A DNA stretch of 64,000 nt from Tuwongella immobilis (GTDB lineage: Bacteria > Planctomycetota > Planctomycetia > Gemmatales > Gemmataceae), in NCBI RefSeq assembly GCF_901538355.1, contig NZ_LR593887.1, forward strand, positions 3,634,920 through 3,698,919. The letters are read 5' to 3'. This document shows positions 13,071 to 21,658 of the stretch, one piece after another (position 1 is the stretch's first letter; each line of letters starts with the position of its first letter). Below the pieces are notes generated by a model, which did no database searches, was not told the DNA's origin, and was given only the letters and a program-made list of their open reading frames with translations. The position numbers and the translations under genes were made by a program.

Positions 13071-16000
13071 TTATCGGGATTCCGGAGTCGATCGATCCGC
13101 CCCGAACCAACTCAGGAAGCGATAGAACACCGGCGTGAGAATGATACCAAACAACGTCACGCCAAGCATCCCACTAAACACGGCCAACCCCAAGGAATGC
13201 CGCATTTCGGCCCCCGCACCCGTCGCAAACACCAACGGCACCACCCCGAAGATGAACGCGAACGAGGTCATCACAATCGGCCGCAATCGCAACTGCGATG
13301 CTTCGACAATCGCCTGATTGACCGGCACGCCGCGATCCTGCATCTGCTTGGCGAATTCCACAATCAGAATCGCATTTTTGCATGCCAGCCCCACCAACAC
13401 CACGAAGCCAATTTGCGTGAAGATCGAGACTTCGATGCCGCCCCACTTCACGCCCAACAGCGAACTGAGCAAACACATGGGCACGACGAGAATGACCGCA
13501 AGTGGCAGCCGCCAGCTTTCGTATTGGGCCGCCAACACCAAAAACACGAACACGACCGCGAGAATGAAAAAGATCATCGCCGTATTTCCAGCCTGATTCT
13601 GGAGAAATGCCAAATCGGTCCACTCCGCCTGCATCGATCGCGGAAGTTCCGAATCGGCAATTTCCGTCAATCGAGCAATCGCTTGAGCCGAACCAACTCC
13701 GCTGGCGGGATTCGCGGTAATCGAGGTTGCCGAATAGAGATTGTAGCGCATCACCATCACCGGCCCGACGGCGTCTCGCACGCTCAAAAACGTGCCAAAA
13801 CGAACCATCTGCCCTTGTTCGTTTCGCACTTGCAGTTGCAGAATATCTTCCACGCGACTGCGAAAGCGCGGATCGGCCTGCACATTCACCTGCCAAGTTC
13901 GCCCGAATTCGTTGAAATTGTTGACATAGTAAGACCCCAGATAGACCTGAAGCGTGCTAAACACTTCGCCCACCGAAACACCCAACACACGACATTTCGT
14001 GCGATCGATATCCAGATACAGCCAGGGCGTATTCGTGCCCGACGAGTTGAATAATCCGGTCAACTCGGGATCGGCCTCCGCTTTCGCCATGATGCGTTGC
14101 GTGACCGCGTCAAGTTCTTCCAACTCGGTGCCGCCACGCGCTTCGACAATCAAATTGAAACCTGCGGTGGTGCCCAAACCATCGACTGGCGGCGCACCAA
14201 AGACGGCGACCGCAGCATCGGCCACTTCCCGATTGCTTTGCTGCTGAATCAACCGCGACACGGCATCTGCACTGCGATCCGGTGAGCGCCGTTGCTCGAA
14301 ATCGTCCAAAATCACGTACATCGATCCGAGATTGGGCGACTTGGCATTGAGAATCAGCGATTGGCCGGAAATTCCGAGCGTATGCTTGACTCCGGGAATC
14401 GCGCGGGTGATCCGTTCGATGGCAGCCATGGCCTGTTCGGTGCGCTCGACTGATGCCGAATCGGGCAATTCGACGTTAACAATCAGATAGCCTTTGTCTT
14501 GTTCGGGAATGAATCCGGTGGGTGTGCGTTGGAATTCCCAATAGGTCATGGCCAAGAGTCCGCCGTAGACCAACATCACCAGTGCCGTCAGTCGCACGCT
14601 AACCCGAACAACTCGGCCGTATCCCACCGTGAGCGCATCGAAAATGCGGTTGAATCCTCGAAAGATCGCCCCCAAGATGCGATTGATCCAGCGGATGGTC
14701 AGCCACCCCAACAGGCCGCCGATGAGCAGGCCCGGCAAGCCATGCCGAACGAAGCCATGCCACATTTCGCTCCCATTCCACATGCCGGTATGGTGATCGG
14801 CATCCGCCTCGCCCCAAACCTTCGGCACCAGCGACCAACTCAACCAGCAGCCCAAAATCGCCAGGCTCCACCACGGCAGTGCTTCTTTGCGATGGCCACC
14901 GTGACCGTCGCCAGTTTTGAAGATCAGCACCGCTCGCGAAGGGGTCATGGTGAGTGCGTTAATCGCCGAGATGATCGTCGACACGGAGACGGTCACCGCA
15001 AATTGGCGGAAGAACTGCCCGGTGATGCCGCCCAGGAAACAGCAGGGAATGAACACGGCACTCAGCACCAGGGTAATCGCCAACACGGGGCCGGTGATTT
15101 CTTCCATGGCTTTGATGGTCGCAGTGCGGGCGTCGAGTCCGGTGGCCATCTGCCGCTCGATATTTTCCAGCACCACAATCGCATCATCGACGACAATCCC
15201 GATCGCCAATACCAATCCAAACAGAGTGAGGTTGTTGAGCGTAAACCCCAACATGGCCATCACGGCAAAGGTTCCGATGAGCGAAACGGGCACATCGATC
15301 ATCGGCAGAATCATTGCCCGCCAATCTTGCAGGAAGAACAGCACCACAATCGCCACCAGAATGACCGCATCGCGCAGGGTGTGAAAGACTTCGTTGACCG
15401 ATTCTTGGATAAATGGCGTGGTATCGTAGACGATTTTGAAATCCAGCCCATCGGGAAATCGCGTGCGCAACTCCTCCATCTTGTCGTAGACGCGCTGGGC
15501 TGTTTCCAGCGCGTTGGAGCCGGGTTGCTGGTAAATCGACAGCGCCACGGACGGGGCACCGTCGAGGGTGCAGGATTGATCGTACTGCTGGGCCCCGCGC
15601 TCGACTCGAGCGACATCGCGCAAGCGGACAATTCCCGTCGATGGGGTCGCGGTCGGGTCGCCTTCGCTCATCAGGGTGGTGTCGCCGAGTGTGCCCGCCG
15701 CTGCTCCGCTGGCTGATGTCGATCCCGATGACTGCAACCCGCTGCTCGCTTCCGATTGGGCAGCCGATCCCTTGATGATAATCTCCGCAAATTCTTGCGG
15801 TTCGACCAATCGCCCCTGGGTATTGATGGTGAGTTGGAATTGCTGGCCGGTGGGCGAGGGGCGTTGCCCGATCTGGCCGGCCGCCACTTGAATGTTCTGC
15901 TGACCGATCGCGGAGACGACATCCATGGCACTCAGATTGAGCGCAGCCATTTTCTGCGGATCGAGCCACGCCCGCAAACTGTAATCGCGTTGCCCAATGT

Positions 16001-16532
16001 AGGAAACGCCCGCCACTCCGGGCAGTCGCCCCAATTCATCGCGCACATCGATGGTTGCATAGTTGCTCAAGAATAGATTATCGTATCGCCCATCCGGGGA
16101 GACGAGATTCACGATCATCAGCGTATTTGGCGACGACTTCTTGACGTTAATTCCTTGATTCTGCACGATCTGCGGCACCACCGGCAGTGCGAGCGCAACC
16201 CGATTCTGCACCAACACTTGGGCAAGATCCGCATCGGTTCCCAGTTTGAAGGTTACCGTCAGCGAATACGAGCCATCATTGGTGCAGCGCGAGGACATAT
16301 ACATCATCCCCTCAACGCCGCTGACTTGCGCTTCGATCGGGGCGGCGACGGTGTCTTGCACGGTAATCGCATTCGCACCGGGATAAACTGCCGTCACTTG
16401 CACCGTGGGCGGCGAGACATCGGGGTATTGCGCCACCGGCAGCGAGAAGACTGCCACTCCCCCTGCAAGCATAATCACCAGCGAAATCACCGTGGCGAAA
16501 ATCGGGCGATCGACAAAGAAACGGGCGATCAT
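13071..16532 (-). CDS. RND efflux pump inner-membrane subunit (AcrB/MexF-like), copy 1
   Basis: Proton-driven exporter of 1153 residues, about 100 longer than AcrB. The N-terminus FFVDRPIFATVISLVIMLAG starts TM1. The proton relay is intact: VDDAIVV in TM4 and GLACKNAILIVEFAK in TM10. Two additions stand out. One is a Ser/Ala/Gly-rich stretch at about 255-300, between IIIKG and IVRLRDVARVERG. The other is ~85 extra residues at about 539-624 between TM6 and TM7, with two hydrophobic segments. The start overlaps the upstream pump stop by 4 bases (ATGA). Substrates are unknown; the pairing suggests a heteromeric or two-pump system sharing one adaptor. Confidence 0.93.
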   Translation of the reverse strand: MIARFFVDRPIFATVISLVIMLAGGVAVFSLPVAQYPDVSPPTVQVTAVYPGANAITVQDTVAAPIEAQVSGVEGMMYMSSRCTNDGSYSLTVTFKLGTDADLAQVLVQNRVALALPVVPQIVQNQGINVKKSSPNTLMIVNLVSPDGRYDNLFLSNYATIDVRDELGRLPGVAGVSYIGQRDYSLRAWLDPQKMAALNLSAMDVVSAIGQQNIQVAAGQIGQRPSPTGQQFQLTINTQGRLVEPQEFAEIIIKGSAAQSEASSGLQSSGSTSASGAAAGTLGDTTLMSEGDPTATPSTGIVRLRDVARVERGAQQYDQSCTLDGAPSVALSIYQQPGSNALETAQRVYDKMEELRTRFPDGLDFKIVYDTTPFIQESVNEVFHTLRDAVILVAIVVLFFLQDWRAMILPMIDVPVSLIGTFAVMAMLGFTLNNLTLFGLVLAIGIVVDDAIVVLENIERQMATGLDARTATIKAMEEITGPVLAITLVLSAVFIPCCFLGGITGQFFRQFAVTVSVSTIISAINALTMTPSRAVLIFKTGDGHGGHRKEALPWWSLAILGCWLSWSLVPKVWGEADADHHTGMWNGSEMWHGFVRHGLPGLLIGGLLGWLTIRWINRILGAIFRGFNRIFDALTVGYGRVVRVSVRLTALVMLVYGGLLAMTYWEFQRTPTGFIPEQDKGYLIVNVELPDSASVERTEQAMAAIERITRAIPGVKHTLGISGQSLILNAKSPNLGSMYVILDDFEQRRSPDRSADAVSRLIQQQSNREVADAAVAVFGAPPVDGLGTTAGFNLIVEARGGTELEELDAVTQRIMAKAEADPELTGLFNSSGTNTPWLYLDIDRTKCRVLGVSVGEVFSTLQVYLGSYYVNNFNEFGRTWQVNVQADPRFRSRVEDILQLQVRNEQGQMVRFGTFLSVRDAVGPVMVMRYNLYSATSITANPASGVGSAQAIARLTEIADSELPRSMQAEWTDLAFLQNQAGNTAMIFFILAVVFVFLVLAAQYESWRLPLAVILVVPMCLLSSLLGVKWGGIEVSIFTQIGFVVLVGLACKNAILIVEFAKQMQDRGVPVNQAIVEASQLRLRPIVMTSFAFIFGVVPLVFATGAGAEMRHSLGLAVFSGMLGVTLFGIILTPVFYRFLSWFGADRSTPESR

Positions 16533-19500
16533 GGCTGCGATCCTCCGGGAGTTTCCCCGTCGATGGAAGGGTTGGCAGGAGACTCCGCAGGCGGCATCGG
16601 CTGGCGATCACGATCCATCGCCAATGGCGCATCCCCACGAATGGAATGGCTCCGACGCGACTGGCGCACCAGACGAAGTTGCCGGGCCACGGCCACCCCG
16701 ATGGCGGCGATGGTGGCTCCAATCGGGACGGCGACCAGCGGATATCCGGTGCCCAACTTCGACACCGCGAAACCAAATAACCCACCGCAAATGCTGCCGA
16801 TGGTGTACGACAGAATGGCTTGGAATCGCGGCCAACGGAATCGAAACGGTTCGGTCAGCCGCTGAATGGCATCGTAGAACGACGGCGTGAGTAGGATTCC
16901 AAACAACGTCACGCCGAGCATGCCGCTAAAAACCGCAGTCCCCAACGAGCGACGCATTTCTGCCCCCGCCCCGGATGCGACGACGAGCGGAAATGTGCCG
17001 AAGATAAACGCGAATGAGGTCATCAGAATGGGCCGCAACCGCTGCCGAGCCGCCTCCAGCGTTGCCTCGGTTCGCCCCATCCCTTGATCCTGCAAATGCT
17101 TGGCGAATTCGACGATGAGAATCGAATTCTTGCACGCCAATCCGACCAGCACCACCAGCCCAATCTGCACGAAAATGTTGACATCTCGTCCCGACCATTG
17201 CACCCCCACCACCGAGCACAACAGGCACAACGGCACCACCAGAATCACCGCCAGCGGCAGCGCCCAACTTTCGTACAAACCCGCTAATGCCAAGAACACA
17301 CTCACCACCGCAAGCAGGAAGACGAAAATCGCCGTATCTCCCGCTTGAATCTGCTGATAGAACAAATCGGTCCATTCGATATTCATGGTGCGTGGCAGGG
17401 TTTCCGCCGCGAGTCGATCCACCGCCGCGATTGCATCGCTATTGCTGAATCCCGCCGCGACATTCCCGCTAATCACCGCCGAATGGTGCAAGTTATACCG
17501 CGTCGCGGTCACAGGTCCGCCGATCTCGCGGATGCGCACCAATGTGCTCAGCGGCACCATTTCCCCGTCCCGGTTGCGGACCTGAAATTGCCCCACATCC
17601 TGAATGTCACTGCGAAAGGCCCCTTCGGCCTGCACCGTCACCTGCCAAATTCGCCCTAAGTCGTTGTAGCTATTGACATACGACGACCCCAGAAACATAT
17701 TCAAAGTTTGATGAATGTCCGAGACCGGCACCCCGAGCGCGGCCGCCTTGGTGCGATCCACCTCCAGGAACAGTTGCGGCGCATTCGAACGATACTGCGA
17801 ACTCGCATTCGCCACTTGCGGCAGTTCCGTGAGCCGTTCGACAAACGGATCCAGTTGTGCCTGCAAGACTTCGTTGGGCATCCCCGCCCGATCTTGCAGA
17901 ATCAGCTTAAATCCACCGGCCAAGCCCAATCCCGGAATCGGCGACGTGGCGAACACGGTCACTTGCGCCTCGGGGACTTCTTTGGCCCAGCGTGCCCGCA
18001 TTTTGGCCATGATGGCCGTGTGTCGCAACGCGGGTGATTGCCGCTCCGCAAACGGCTTCAACACCACGAACATCGATGCGAAATTCGGACTATTCGCTTG
18101 CAGCAAAAACGAAATGCCGACATTCGAGACCGCGTGCGCCACACCCGGCGTTTCCATGGCAATCTGCTGAATTTTCAGCGTCGCCTCCTCAGTCCGCTCC
18201 AGCGAGGCCGAATCGGGTAGCTGCACATTGACAATCAATCGCCCCTGATCTTGTTGGGGAATAAAGCCTTGCGGTGCCGAGCGAAACACCTCAATGGTGG
18301 TCGCCAACAGCACGCCATACAGGATCAACGGCACCATGCGCACGCGCAACAACTGACGGATGATCCACCCGTACCAGTTCGATCCGATTCCGAAAATTCG
18401 ATTGAACAGCCAAAAGAACCAGCCGAGCGTCAGCCACAAGATCCAGCCAAGCAGATCGCGTTTCTGGGAGCGCGGTCGCAACAGCAACGCCGACAGCGCG
18501 GGAGATAATGTCAGCGCACTCACCGTGGAAATCACGGTCGAAGCCGCGATGGTGATGGCAAATTGCTGAAAAAATTGCCCCGTGATCCCCGGAATGAACG
18601 CACAGGGAATGAACACCGCACACAAAACCACCCCAACGGCGAGAATCGGCCCGGTGACTTCTTCCATCGCCCGACTGGTCGCCTCGCGTGCCGATAATCC
18701 GCGATCCATCCAGCGCTCGACATTTTCGACCACCACAATCGCATCATCCACGACAATGCCGATTGCCAACACGAGGCCAAAGAGCGAGATATTGTTGAGG
18801 CTGTACCCCAAGAGGGCCATAATGGCGAAGGTGCCGATGATGGCGACAGGAACCGCAATCAGCGGAATCATGGCCGCACGCCAACTTTGCAGAAACACGA
18901 GCACCACGACCGCGACCAATGCCAACGCTTCAAATAACGTCTTGACCACATCGTTGACCGAATCCCGCACGAACGTCGAGGTATCGTAGCCAATGCGATA
19001 TTCGACGGAATCCGGGAATCGCTTCGCCAATTCGTCCATCTTGGCTTTGACTGCGCTGGCCACATCCAAGGCGTTGGAGCCAGGCAATTGGTACAACCCC
19101 AGTCCGACCGTGGGCTGCCCATCGAAATACGAAATGGTGTTGTAATTCTGCGAGCCAATTTCGATTCGTGCGACATCCTTGAGACGTACCGTGGGCGTGT
19201 TGACACTCGGAATCAGCCCGAGATCGCGCGATTGCAGGCTGTTGGCCCCTGCTGCGCCGCCGATCATTTCGCTTCCGGTAATCGTCGCAGCAATCCCCGA
19301 CGCTGCGCCACCGCTGGGCATGCCAGATCCGACTGCGGACATTGCCTCGGAATTCGCAGCACTGGTAGCAAGACTTCGCGACGGCGCAGTGGGATTGGAA
19401 AGCGGATTCGCACTCGGCGATGCGGTGACATTCTCACCAGAAAGCGGTGTCGCGGGATTGGCCAACGGCGGAGGCGACGGCATCGATTCGATCGGCGTCG

Positions 19501-20362
19501 GTCGGCCGCTTCCGCGCGTGGGAATCGAGCGACCAGCGGGGATTGGATTCGGCCGTTCAACGACCAATCCCGTCGGTCCCAACATGGTCGGCGGCGTCCC
19601 AATTTTCAGCACGATTTCGCCAAACTGATCGGGATCGCTCAATCGTCCCAGGGTGCTTAAGGGCAAATCAAAGGCTTGGCCGTTGGCAATGGGCGGTTGT
19701 CCGATTCGGCCTGCGGGGGCATCGATATTTTGACTGCGAATCGCCGCCGCGACATCGAGCGCAGTCAAATTTCGCGCTGCCAATTTCTGCGGATCCAACC
19801 AGATCCGCATGCTGTAATCCCGTTGCCCGAAGACGTTAATGTCCGAGATGCCATCGACACGAAGCAATTCATCCCGAACCGCGATTGTGGCAAAATTGCT
19901 GAGATACTTATCGTCATACCGGCCATCGGTGGAAATGAAATTGACAATCATCAGCATATCCGGCGTTCGCTTGCGAATGCGGATTCCCTGATTTTGCACG
20001 GCCGTGGGCAATTGCGGCATCGCCAGCGCCACGCGATTTTGCACCATCACCAACGCGGTTTTAATGTCCGTACCAATTTCAAACGTCACCGTCAGCGAAT
20101 AACTGCCATCGTTCCCCGATTGCGAGGACATGTAGATCATCCCCGGCACCCCGTTGACATATTGTTCGATCGGGGCACCAACGGAATTGGCCACTTCGCG
20201 GGCGCTGGCTCCGGGATAACTAATCGAGATCGAAACGCCGGGCGGGGTGATGGCGGGATATTGCGATACCGGCAAAAAGATCAGGGCAATCAGGCCGATC
20301 AGCGTCACCACGATCGAAAGCACCGTCGCAAAGATCGGCCGTCGAATGAAAAACTCGCTCAT
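16529..20362 (-). CDS. RND efflux pump inner-membrane subunit (AcrB-like), copy 2
   Basis: A 1277-residue RND transporter, much longer than AcrB (about 1050). TM1 starts at FFIRRPIFATVLSIVVTLIG. Relay residues are present in VDDAIVVVENVERW and GLACKNSILIVEFAKH. Residues about 255-389 form a Pro/Ser/Ala/Gly-rich insertion in the porter/docking region, exactly where copy 1 has its shorter insertion. A C-terminal extension after TM12 carries two further hydrophobic segments and a polar tail. It begins 9 bases after the adaptor gene stop and overlaps copy 1 by 4 bases, so all are translated from one message. No frameshift is evident; the insertion is in frame and composition fits neighbouring coding DNA. 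Confidence 0.93.
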   Translation of the reverse strand: MSEFFIRRPIFATVLSIVVTLIGLIALIFLPVSQYPAITPPGVSISISYPGASAREVANSVGAPIEQYVNGVPGMIYMSSQSGNDGSYSLTVTFEIGTDIKTALVMVQNRVALAMPQLPTAVQNQGIRIRKRTPDMLMIVNFISTDGRYDDKYLSNFATIAVRDELLRVDGISDINVFGQRDYSMRIWLDPQKLAARNLTALDVAAAIRSQNIDAPAGRIGQPPIANGQAFDLPLSTLGRLSDPDQFGEIVLKIGTPPTMLGPTGLVVERPNPIPAGRSIPTRGSGRPTPIESMPSPPPLANPATPLSGENVTASPSANPLSNPTAPSRSLATSAANSEAMSAVGSGMPSGGAASGIAATITGSEMIGGAAGANSLQSRDLGLIPSVNTPTVRLKDVARIEIGSQNYNTISYFDGQPTVGLGLYQLPGSNALDVASAVKAKMDELAKRFPDSVEYRIGYDTSTFVRDSVNDVVKTLFEALALVAVVVLVFLQSWRAAMIPLIAVPVAIIGTFAIMALLGYSLNNISLFGLVLAIGIVVDDAIVVVENVERWMDRGLSAREATSRAMEEVTGPILAVGVVLCAVFIPCAFIPGITGQFFQQFAITIAASTVISTVSALTLSPALSALLLRPRSQKRDLLGWILWLTLGWFFWLFNRIFGIGSNWYGWIIRQLLRVRMVPLILYGVLLATTIEVFRSAPQGFIPQQDQGRLIVNVQLPDSASLERTEEATLKIQQIAMETPGVAHAVSNVGISFLLQANSPNFASMFVVLKPFAERQSPALRHTAIMAKMRARWAKEVPEAQVTVFATSPIPGLGLAGGFKLILQDRAGMPNEVLQAQLDPFVERLTELPQVANASSQYRSNAPQLFLEVDRTKAAALGVPVSDIHQTLNMFLGSSYVNSYNDLGRIWQVTVQAEGAFRSDIQDVGQFQVRNRDGEMVPLSTLVRIREIGGPVTATRYNLHHSAVISGNVAAGFSNSDAIAAVDRLAAETLPRTMNIEWTDLFYQQIQAGDTAIFVFLLAVVSVFLALAGLYESWALPLAVILVVPLCLLCSVVGVQWSGRDVNIFVQIGLVVLVGLACKNSILIVEFAKHLQDQGMGRTEATLEAARQRLRPILMTSFAFIFGTFPLVVASGAGAEMRRSLGTAVFSGMLGVTLFGILLTPSFYDAIQRLTEPFRFRWPRFQAILSYTIGSICGGLFGFAVSKLGTGYPLVAVPIGATIAAIGVAVARQLRLVRQSRRSHSIRGDAPLAMDRDRQPMPPAESPANPSIDGETPGGSQP

Positions 20363-20371
20363 GGCCCAACC

Positions 20372-21658
20372 TCACGACTTCGCGGCGTTCGGCGTTTTGG
20401 CTTGGGCACCTTCAACCGGGATCGGCTCGCCAGTTTTGATGGTTGGCATGCGCATTTCTTGACGCTCGACGCGCAGTTTCGGTCGCAATTGCTGCAACGC
20501 CCCCACCGCGACCCACTCATCGGCGTCCAGCCCTTCTTCGATCACCCGCAATCCATCTTCTTGCAATGCCCCCACCTTCACGCGGCGATATTGCACCTGA
20601 TTCTCCGCATCGATCACATACACATATTTCAATCCCTGATCCGATCCGATCGCGCGATCGATCACCAGCACCGCGGAAGCTGGCTCGCCGATCGGCAGGC
20701 GGATGCGGGTGAACATCCCCGGTGTCAACCACCACACCCCGTCCCGCAATTGCCGATTCGCAAAGACGCCACGCACGGCAATGGTCCCCGTGGACGGATT
20801 GACCTGGTTGTTGATGAAGTTGATCTTTCCTTCATGCGGAAAGCCCGTTTCACCTTCCAACCCCATGCGAACAGGAAGTTCCTGCAGCCAACTTTCGATC
20901 GAGCCGGTTCCGGGCTTCCCCGATTGAAACGAGCCGGTCAGCCGATGATACGTCCGCTCATCCAGATCGAAGTAGACGTACATCGGATTCATCGACACGA
21001 CGGTTGTCAGCAGCGTTTGATCCTGCGTCACCAAGTTGCCCAGCGTGTAGAAATACCGGCTGATTCGCCCACTAATTGGCGAGCGAATTTTGGTGAATTC
21101 CAGATTCAGCTTCGCGGTCTGCACCGTCGATTGCGCCATCTTGATGCGGGCATTCGCTTCTTCGACTTGGGCCACATCTTGATCGAGTTGTTGCTGACTG
21201 ACGGCCCCACCCAACGAGCGATCCCGTTCCAGGGTCTTCGTCGCTAATTTCCATTGGGCGGTATAGACATCGACTTGGCTTTGCGCCTCGTCCAGAATCG
21301 CCTGATACGGTCGCGGGTCAATCTCGAACAGCAAATCCCCCGCGTTCACTTCCGAGCCTTCCTGGAACGGCATTTTCGTCAAATACCCGGTCACTCGCGC
21401 GCGAATGCTCACCGCTTGCACCGCATCGGTTCGCCCGGTGTATTCCACCGTCTCGGTCACCACACGCGACACGGGTTTGGCAATCGGCACCACCAATGTG
21501 TCGGCCTGCTTCTGCGGTGGCTCTTTCGAGGGACGCTGACAGCCCGAGATGCTGCCCAAACCACCCATCATCGCTAGCATCCCCGCGAAGACTACCCATC
21601 GGCATTCCAGATTGCGGAACCGACGCGGGCCCGCGATTCGATCGCATCGGTTGTTCAT
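20372..21658 (-). CDS. RND periplasmic adaptor lipoprotein (membrane fusion protein)
   Basis: Links the RND pumps to an outer-membrane channel. The 428-residue protein has a lipoprotein signal with lipobox SISGC (Cys40). The barrel-sandwich/lipoyl half is VSIRARVTGYLTKMPFQEG. A coiled-coil hairpin is predicted at about 115-170 (LEEAQ/QVDVYTAQ to VEEANARIKMAQ), followed by the second lipoyl half KIRSPISGRISRY and a beta-barrel. The first gene of the adaptor-RND-RND-DUF1415 run. No TolC-like outer-membrane factor lies nearby, so it presumably recruits one encoded elsewhere. Confidence 0.92.
   Translation of the reverse strand: MNNRCDRIAGPRRFRNLECRWVVFAGMLAMMGGLGSISGCQRPSKEPPQKQADTLVVPIAKPVSRVVTETVEYTGRTDAVQAVSIRARVTGYLTKMPFQEGSEVNAGDLLFEIDPRPYQAILDEAQSQVDVYTAQWKLATKTLERDRSLGGAVSQQQLDQDVAQVEEANARIKMAQSTVQTAKLNLEFTKIRSPISGRISRYFYTLGNLVTQDQTLLTTVVSMNPMYVYFDLDERTYHRLTGSFQSGKPGTGSIESWLQELPVRMGLEGETGFPHEGKINFINNQVNPSTGTIAVRGVFANRQLRDGVWWLTPGMFTRIRLPIGEPASAVLVIDRAIGSDQGLKYVYVIDAENQVQYRRVKVGALQEDGLRVIEEGLDADEWVAVGALQQLRPKLRVERQEMRMPTIKTGEPIPVEGAQAKTPNAAKS

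Follow-up and report, generated by a model that had tools for sequence, protein, structure and literature searches.

The window, a stretch of 64,000 nucleotides of the Tuwongella immobilis genome, carries on its minus strand (13071-21658) a gene for a periplasmic adaptor followed by genes for two RND permeases. The adaptor (21658..20372, minus strand; 428 aa) is MexE/OqxA-like and scores 248 bits against TIGR01730 (cut-off 94.9). The upstream permease, copy 2 (hereafter U; 20362..16529, minus strand; 1277 aa), and the downstream permease, copy 1 (hereafter D; 16532..13071, minus strand; 1153 aa), are encoded in the same operon by open frames that overlap by 4 bp. Both match PF00873 and score above the cut-offs of the NCBIfam HAE-1 family RND_permease_1 (NF000282; 1295.6 bits for U and 1286.8 bits for D, cut-off 1250) and of TIGR00915 (1084.2 and 1085.6 bits, cut-off 940), and all five proton-relay residues (D407, D408, K940, R971, and T978) are present in each. 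Judged by its sequence, the locus represents an HAE-1 efflux operon with one adaptor and two permeases, for which drug:proton antiport is presumed. No outer-membrane factor gene is encoded beside the operon; several TolC-type outer-membrane factors are found at other loci of the same genome, some adjoining other RND genes. An Rfam scan of the operon returned no match, and scans for promoters and terminators gave scores that did not exceed those of shuffled sequences.

The window permeases share a common fold, the proton-relay residues, a docking domain, and a MexE/OqxA-type adaptor with the MexF/OqxB/BpeF/AdeG group of HAE-1 pumps (NF000282), and their best PDB matches are BpeF (7wlv), OqxB (7cz9), and AdeG (8yr0). 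They differ from this group in that two paralogous permeases are combined with a single adaptor and no adjoining outer-membrane factor gene. In this respect, the operon resembles MdtABC and MuxABC, in which one adaptor gene precedes two tandem paralogous permeases that stem from an ancient duplication, with MdtB2C1 as the heterotrimer (PMC7015380). The window likewise has one adaptor and two tandem permeases, an arrangement conserved in its relatives, but neither permease is a member of the Mdt families themselves, with 458.8 (U) and 428.5 bits (D) against MdtB (NF007798, cut-off 1584) and 507.5 and 489 bits against MdtC (NF007905, cut-off 1774).

Low-complexity inserts at DN beta-hairpin 1

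Both permeases contain a low-complexity insert, located at 19597..19196 (minus strand; aa about 256-389) in U and at 15767..15642 (minus strand; aa about 256-297) in D. An E-INS-i alignment with E. coli AcrB places both inserts at AcrB 255/256, where they add 131 residues to U and 40 to D relative to AcrB. The initial annotation had reported about 135 and 45 extra residues at one shared site near the docking domain that faces adaptor and channel; the extra residues in both copies are confirmed, and the site can now be sharpened to the turn of DN beta-hairpin 1. Alignment of the window permeases to solved RND pumps with phmmer left gaps at closely similar positions (query 254/392 against PDB chain 256/263 for U, query 255/296 against chain 256/257 for D), and none of the solved RND sequences among the matches listed, including those of the MexF/OqxB/BpeF/AdeG group, carries an insert there. 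In AcrB, the equivalent of the insert site is the turn NQDG 254-257, which is the tip of DN beta-hairpin 1 according to the alignment, the structural model, and a paper that assigns D256 and G257 to the docking domain (PMC4303003). The window inserts thus occupy the tip of the counterpart of hairpin 1 in AcrAB-TolC, while the pseudo-symmetric DC hairpin 2 (AADG 793-796) is of unaltered length and without insert.

The share of Ser, Thr, Gly, Ala, Pro, and Asn reaches 62-82% in sequence windows within the U insert, compared to at most 55% in all other windows of the protein. Overall, the inserts contain 20% Gly, 15% Ser, 14.5% Ala, 13% Thr, and 10% Pro, no Cys and almost no aromatic residues, and are poor in hydrophobic and charged residues. 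The earlier description of these segments as repeats was a misnomer, since no tandem repeat was detected in either the U or the D insert, and a slippage origin was rejected for this reason.

AlphaFold2 models were built from alignments of the window proteins and their relatives. In these models, U 258-387 and D 257-299 have pLDDT values mostly below 45, i.e., are predicted to be disordered, and the flanking strands are modelled confidently on either side (U 251-253 and 391-393, D 252-254 and 301-303). Outside the insert, the U model folds as an HAE-1 permease with the RND fold, including porter and docking domains, and Foldseek matched it to BpeF, OqxB, and AdeG with target TM-scores of about 0.92-0.93 (0.92 for BpeF 7wlv, the best PDB match). 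As modelled, the tip of DN beta-hairpin 1 in both permeases is replaced by an intrinsically disordered loop rich in Ser, Thr, Gly, Ala, and Pro, and searches of the literature found no description of these hairpin inserts.

A second type of insert was observed elsewhere in these proteins. Window D (aa about 545-610) and many other D-type permeases (L098, L101, L109, L110, L126, and others) have 61-83 additional residues in the cytoplasmic linker between TM6 and TM7, at AcrB 511. Two hydrophobic segments of this insert form extra helices in the AlphaFold2 model (554-572 and 587 onward). On this model, the linker insert may supply D with two transmembrane helices beyond the usual RND set. A linker insert of 70-78 residues, otherwise typical of D, is also present in one sub-clade of U (L105, L116, L124, L076, L086, L061, and L077), which looks like gene conversion between tandem neighbours or a secondary gain. 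At the same linker site, window U includes a 24-bp imperfect tandem repeat (18407-18452) encoding LGWILWLT/LGWFFWLF. Finally, some Gemmataceae D permeases (L091, L089, L090, and L171-L173) have 12-17 extra residues directly after VRLRDV (AcrB about 266-267), an extension that window D lacks.

Distribution and history of the inserts

We evaluated the distribution of the inserts across 61 Gemmataceae genomes, a further 61 genomes of the order, and named genome contigs, using an alignment of about 140 RND proteins, AcrB included, and a tree computed without the insert columns. In planctomycete tandem pairs, the U genes and the D genes formed two paralogue clades with mirrored branching, which indicates an old tandem duplication passed down as a pair. 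At least three types of tandem pairs were recognized, and the window pair belongs to type A. Among type A pairs, U carries 101-197 additional residues in 19 proteins of Gemmataceae type (18 and the window), and D carries 24-57 in 20 of the 20 proteins sampled. The additions are limited to 6-10 residues in both permeases of type B pairs and are about zero in both permeases of type C pairs, and the other 98 aligned RND rows, including AcrB, have at most 21 extra residues at the site. The position itself, AcrB 255/256, is the same in every insert-bearing protein, so that a four-residue turn in AcrB corresponds to 24-197 residues, predicted to be disordered, in type A pairs. One U gene (L092; G032 C4, minus strand) is frameshifted within its insert and represents either a pseudogene or an assembly error.

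Since types B and C have no long insert in either paralogue, the U and D expansions took place after the duplication and in parallel. On this phylogenetic evidence, U and D are ancient paralogues and the inserts are later than their split, in agreement with the separate expansion in each copy proposed by the initial annotation. Conceivably, a small initial insert was passed between neighbours by gene conversion, although the ends of the U and D inserts are unlike in sequence.

Rooting with type B places the origin of long U inserts at the base of type A U. Five U proteins of Isosphaeraceae type, with only six additional residues, are nested inside this clade, and a tree forcing all long U inserts into one group was rejected (AU p = 0.0011, L092 left out). 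From this topology, the insert was lost in the nested Isosphaeraceae-type branch, and the persistence of these U proteins after the loss indicates that the insert is not essential to the pump. Relatives lacking any insertion had been named as potential counter-evidence to a functional insert; this objection applies in part, to these five U proteins, whereas the other 19 U and all 20 D keep theirs.

Outside the family, we surveyed PF00873 matches in one genome for each of 30 planctomycete families, including the window's own. None of the matches listed in the 29 other families was split at the insert site, which is evidence of rarity rather than proof of absence, as the survey is limited to the matches listed and small inserts may leave a match unsplit. 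One apparently split match in another family (G097) was caused by a truncated contig end and contains no insert.

Selective constraint on the inserts

Across Gemmataceae, the inserts keep their position but for the most part not their sequence, as the initial annotation had anticipated and the alignments bear out. Insert length spans a twofold range between genera, and the insert of window U is 27% identical to that of its G001 relative in the aligned portion, compared to 68% identity elsewhere in the protein. Between congeneric species, however, U inserts measure 176/176/177 and 120/122 aa, so that the random variation between strains raised as an objection was not observed, and the D inserts of close species are similarly stable (47/48/48, 35/35, and 50/50 aa). 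The sequence of the inserts, too, is retained between close species.

The ratio of non-synonymous to synonymous substitution rates (dN/dS), estimated with NG86, which assumes a simple mutation model and is open to possible bias from codon composition, was 0.16-0.24 in U inserts against 0.05-0.08 in the remainder of the U protein, and 0.02-0.12 in D inserts. Non-synonymous changes were below the neutral expectation in two U pairs (p = 2e-7 and 8e-14) and three D pairs (p = 3e-6, 3e-5, and 8e-8), and substitutions were concentrated at third positions in every species pair. Taken together, the stable length and the selection against amino acid changes indicate that the inserts are not neutral junk, and such purifying selection makes a function plausible, which upholds this part of the initial proposal.

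Conservation is unevenly distributed along the U insert. Its last 30 residues are similar across the clade (z 11.7 relative to within-insert shuffles) and contain the C-terminal motif GGxVGxxxLxGGxLxxGPxP (core VGxxxLxGGxL), which occurs in window U in a diverged form (aa about 365-389), IGGAAGANSLQSRDLGLIPSVNTP. Across genera, the middle of the insert shows only modest similarity, and conservation of the N-terminal end across the clade was not significant (z 1.3), with a PPxLxPxG sequence at this end common to the window's closest relatives.

Possible roles of the crown loops

Direct contact between AcrB and TolC is a debated matter. The adaptor beta-barrel contacts DN hairpin 1 and DC hairpin 2 of the permease, gripping "in a pincer-like fashion" (PMC6975555), and the docking domain is the only part of the permease that the barrel touches (PMC5404916). 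According to PMC4446572, which cites Tamura 2005 and Weeks 2014, AcrB hairpins cross-link to TolC, and deletion of the hairpins leads to loss of TolC. In addition, D256N and G257V in AcrB act as suppressors of a trimerisation-defective mutant (PMC4303003). In AcrB, hairpin 1 lies in the grip of the adaptor barrel and opposite TolC, and for this reason the pump crown is the most likely place of action of the loops. There, they would tune the capture or release of the adaptor and the outer-membrane channel, and we tentatively favor such tuning of docking as the most likely role. In a variant of this mechanism, the contact would be made by the conserved C-terminal 25 residues of the U insert, with the variable middle as a flexible tether. 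On the adaptor side, the barrel loop facing the hairpin is extended by 6 to 38 residues in some insert-bearing operons (L092, L059, L094, L030, and L029), with the longest, Pro/Ala-rich extension (+38) in L092, but co-extension of this loop with the inserts was not significant (one-sided p = 0.055, uncorrected for phylogeny).

A weaker but still serious candidate is that the hairpin tip, a solvent-exposed turn, simply accepts any hydrophilic low-complexity sequence, selection acting only for solubility and reading frame and not for a specific task. This would fit the generic linker composition of the inserts, the fast divergence of their middle, the loss in one subclade, and the low-complexity C-terminal tails of other RND proteins of the same genome (L005 and L028). 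It is harder to reconcile with dN/dS values well below 1 in all pairs tested, with the conserved C-terminal motif of U, with the retention of the D insert in the entire sample, and with the lack of such internal inserts in other RND proteins of the same genomes, and we regard it as somewhat unlikely.

The difference in loop length between U and D would distinguish the two protomer types if the trimer is a mixed one. An elaborate form of this idea, which we consider unlikely, is a two-permease RND pump in which disordered crown loops of unequal length tag the protomers and would either control how the adaptor or the channel is engaged or gate the exit duct; intrinsic disorder at the docking hairpin would then regulate a tripartite pump.

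Alternatively, three disordered chains per trimer might occupy the exit funnel, where they would serve as a filter or valve on the substrates heading for the channel. Polymer scaling gives a disordered chain of 131 residues a radius of gyration of about 35 Å. This is comparable with the funnel opening at the crown, about 30 Å (PMC4403515), above which the loops would lie, and the scarcity of hydrophobic and charged residues would suit such a role. Nothing in the data, however, favors chains pointing inward over chains pointing outward between adaptor protomers, and loop length differs twofold between genera, which makes a gate of this kind doubtful.

The initial annotation had suggested bridging of the unusual planctomycete periplasm, which would mean that the loops span an unusually wide gap between pump and channel. 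The insert does face the channel, and its contour length would be enough, but insert-free pairs coexist with type A pairs in the same genomes, and thus within the same envelope: G001 encodes L088 (129 residues in U/24 in D) and L112 (0/0), G009 encodes L089 (127/41) and L126 (0/0), and G020 encodes L105 and the insert-free L044. Moreover, no split match was listed in the 29 other planctomycete families, the adaptor alpha-hairpin is of ordinary length and not longer than that of AcrA, and a loop without fixed structure makes a poor spacer; bridging is therefore very improbable, and this part of the functional proposal is poorly supported. Finally, the frameshifted L092 could be cited for an artefact, be it a frameshift, an assembly error, or a mis-called ORF. 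This is refuted for practical purposes by the relatives, as many independent genomes, some of them finished, have an open frame with the insert at the same site, and by substitutions biased to third positions.

The insert-bearing pair type is a previously undescribed form of HAE-1 pump, whose function we infer, and a further case of an ancient two-permease operon beyond MdtBC and MuxBC. An RND permease touches adaptor and channel at few points, and the tip of DN beta-hairpin 1 is among them; a lineage in which this tip is replaced by up to 197 residues of predicted disorder, kept under selection in two paralogues and lost in one U branch, represents a natural experiment on the hairpin's task.
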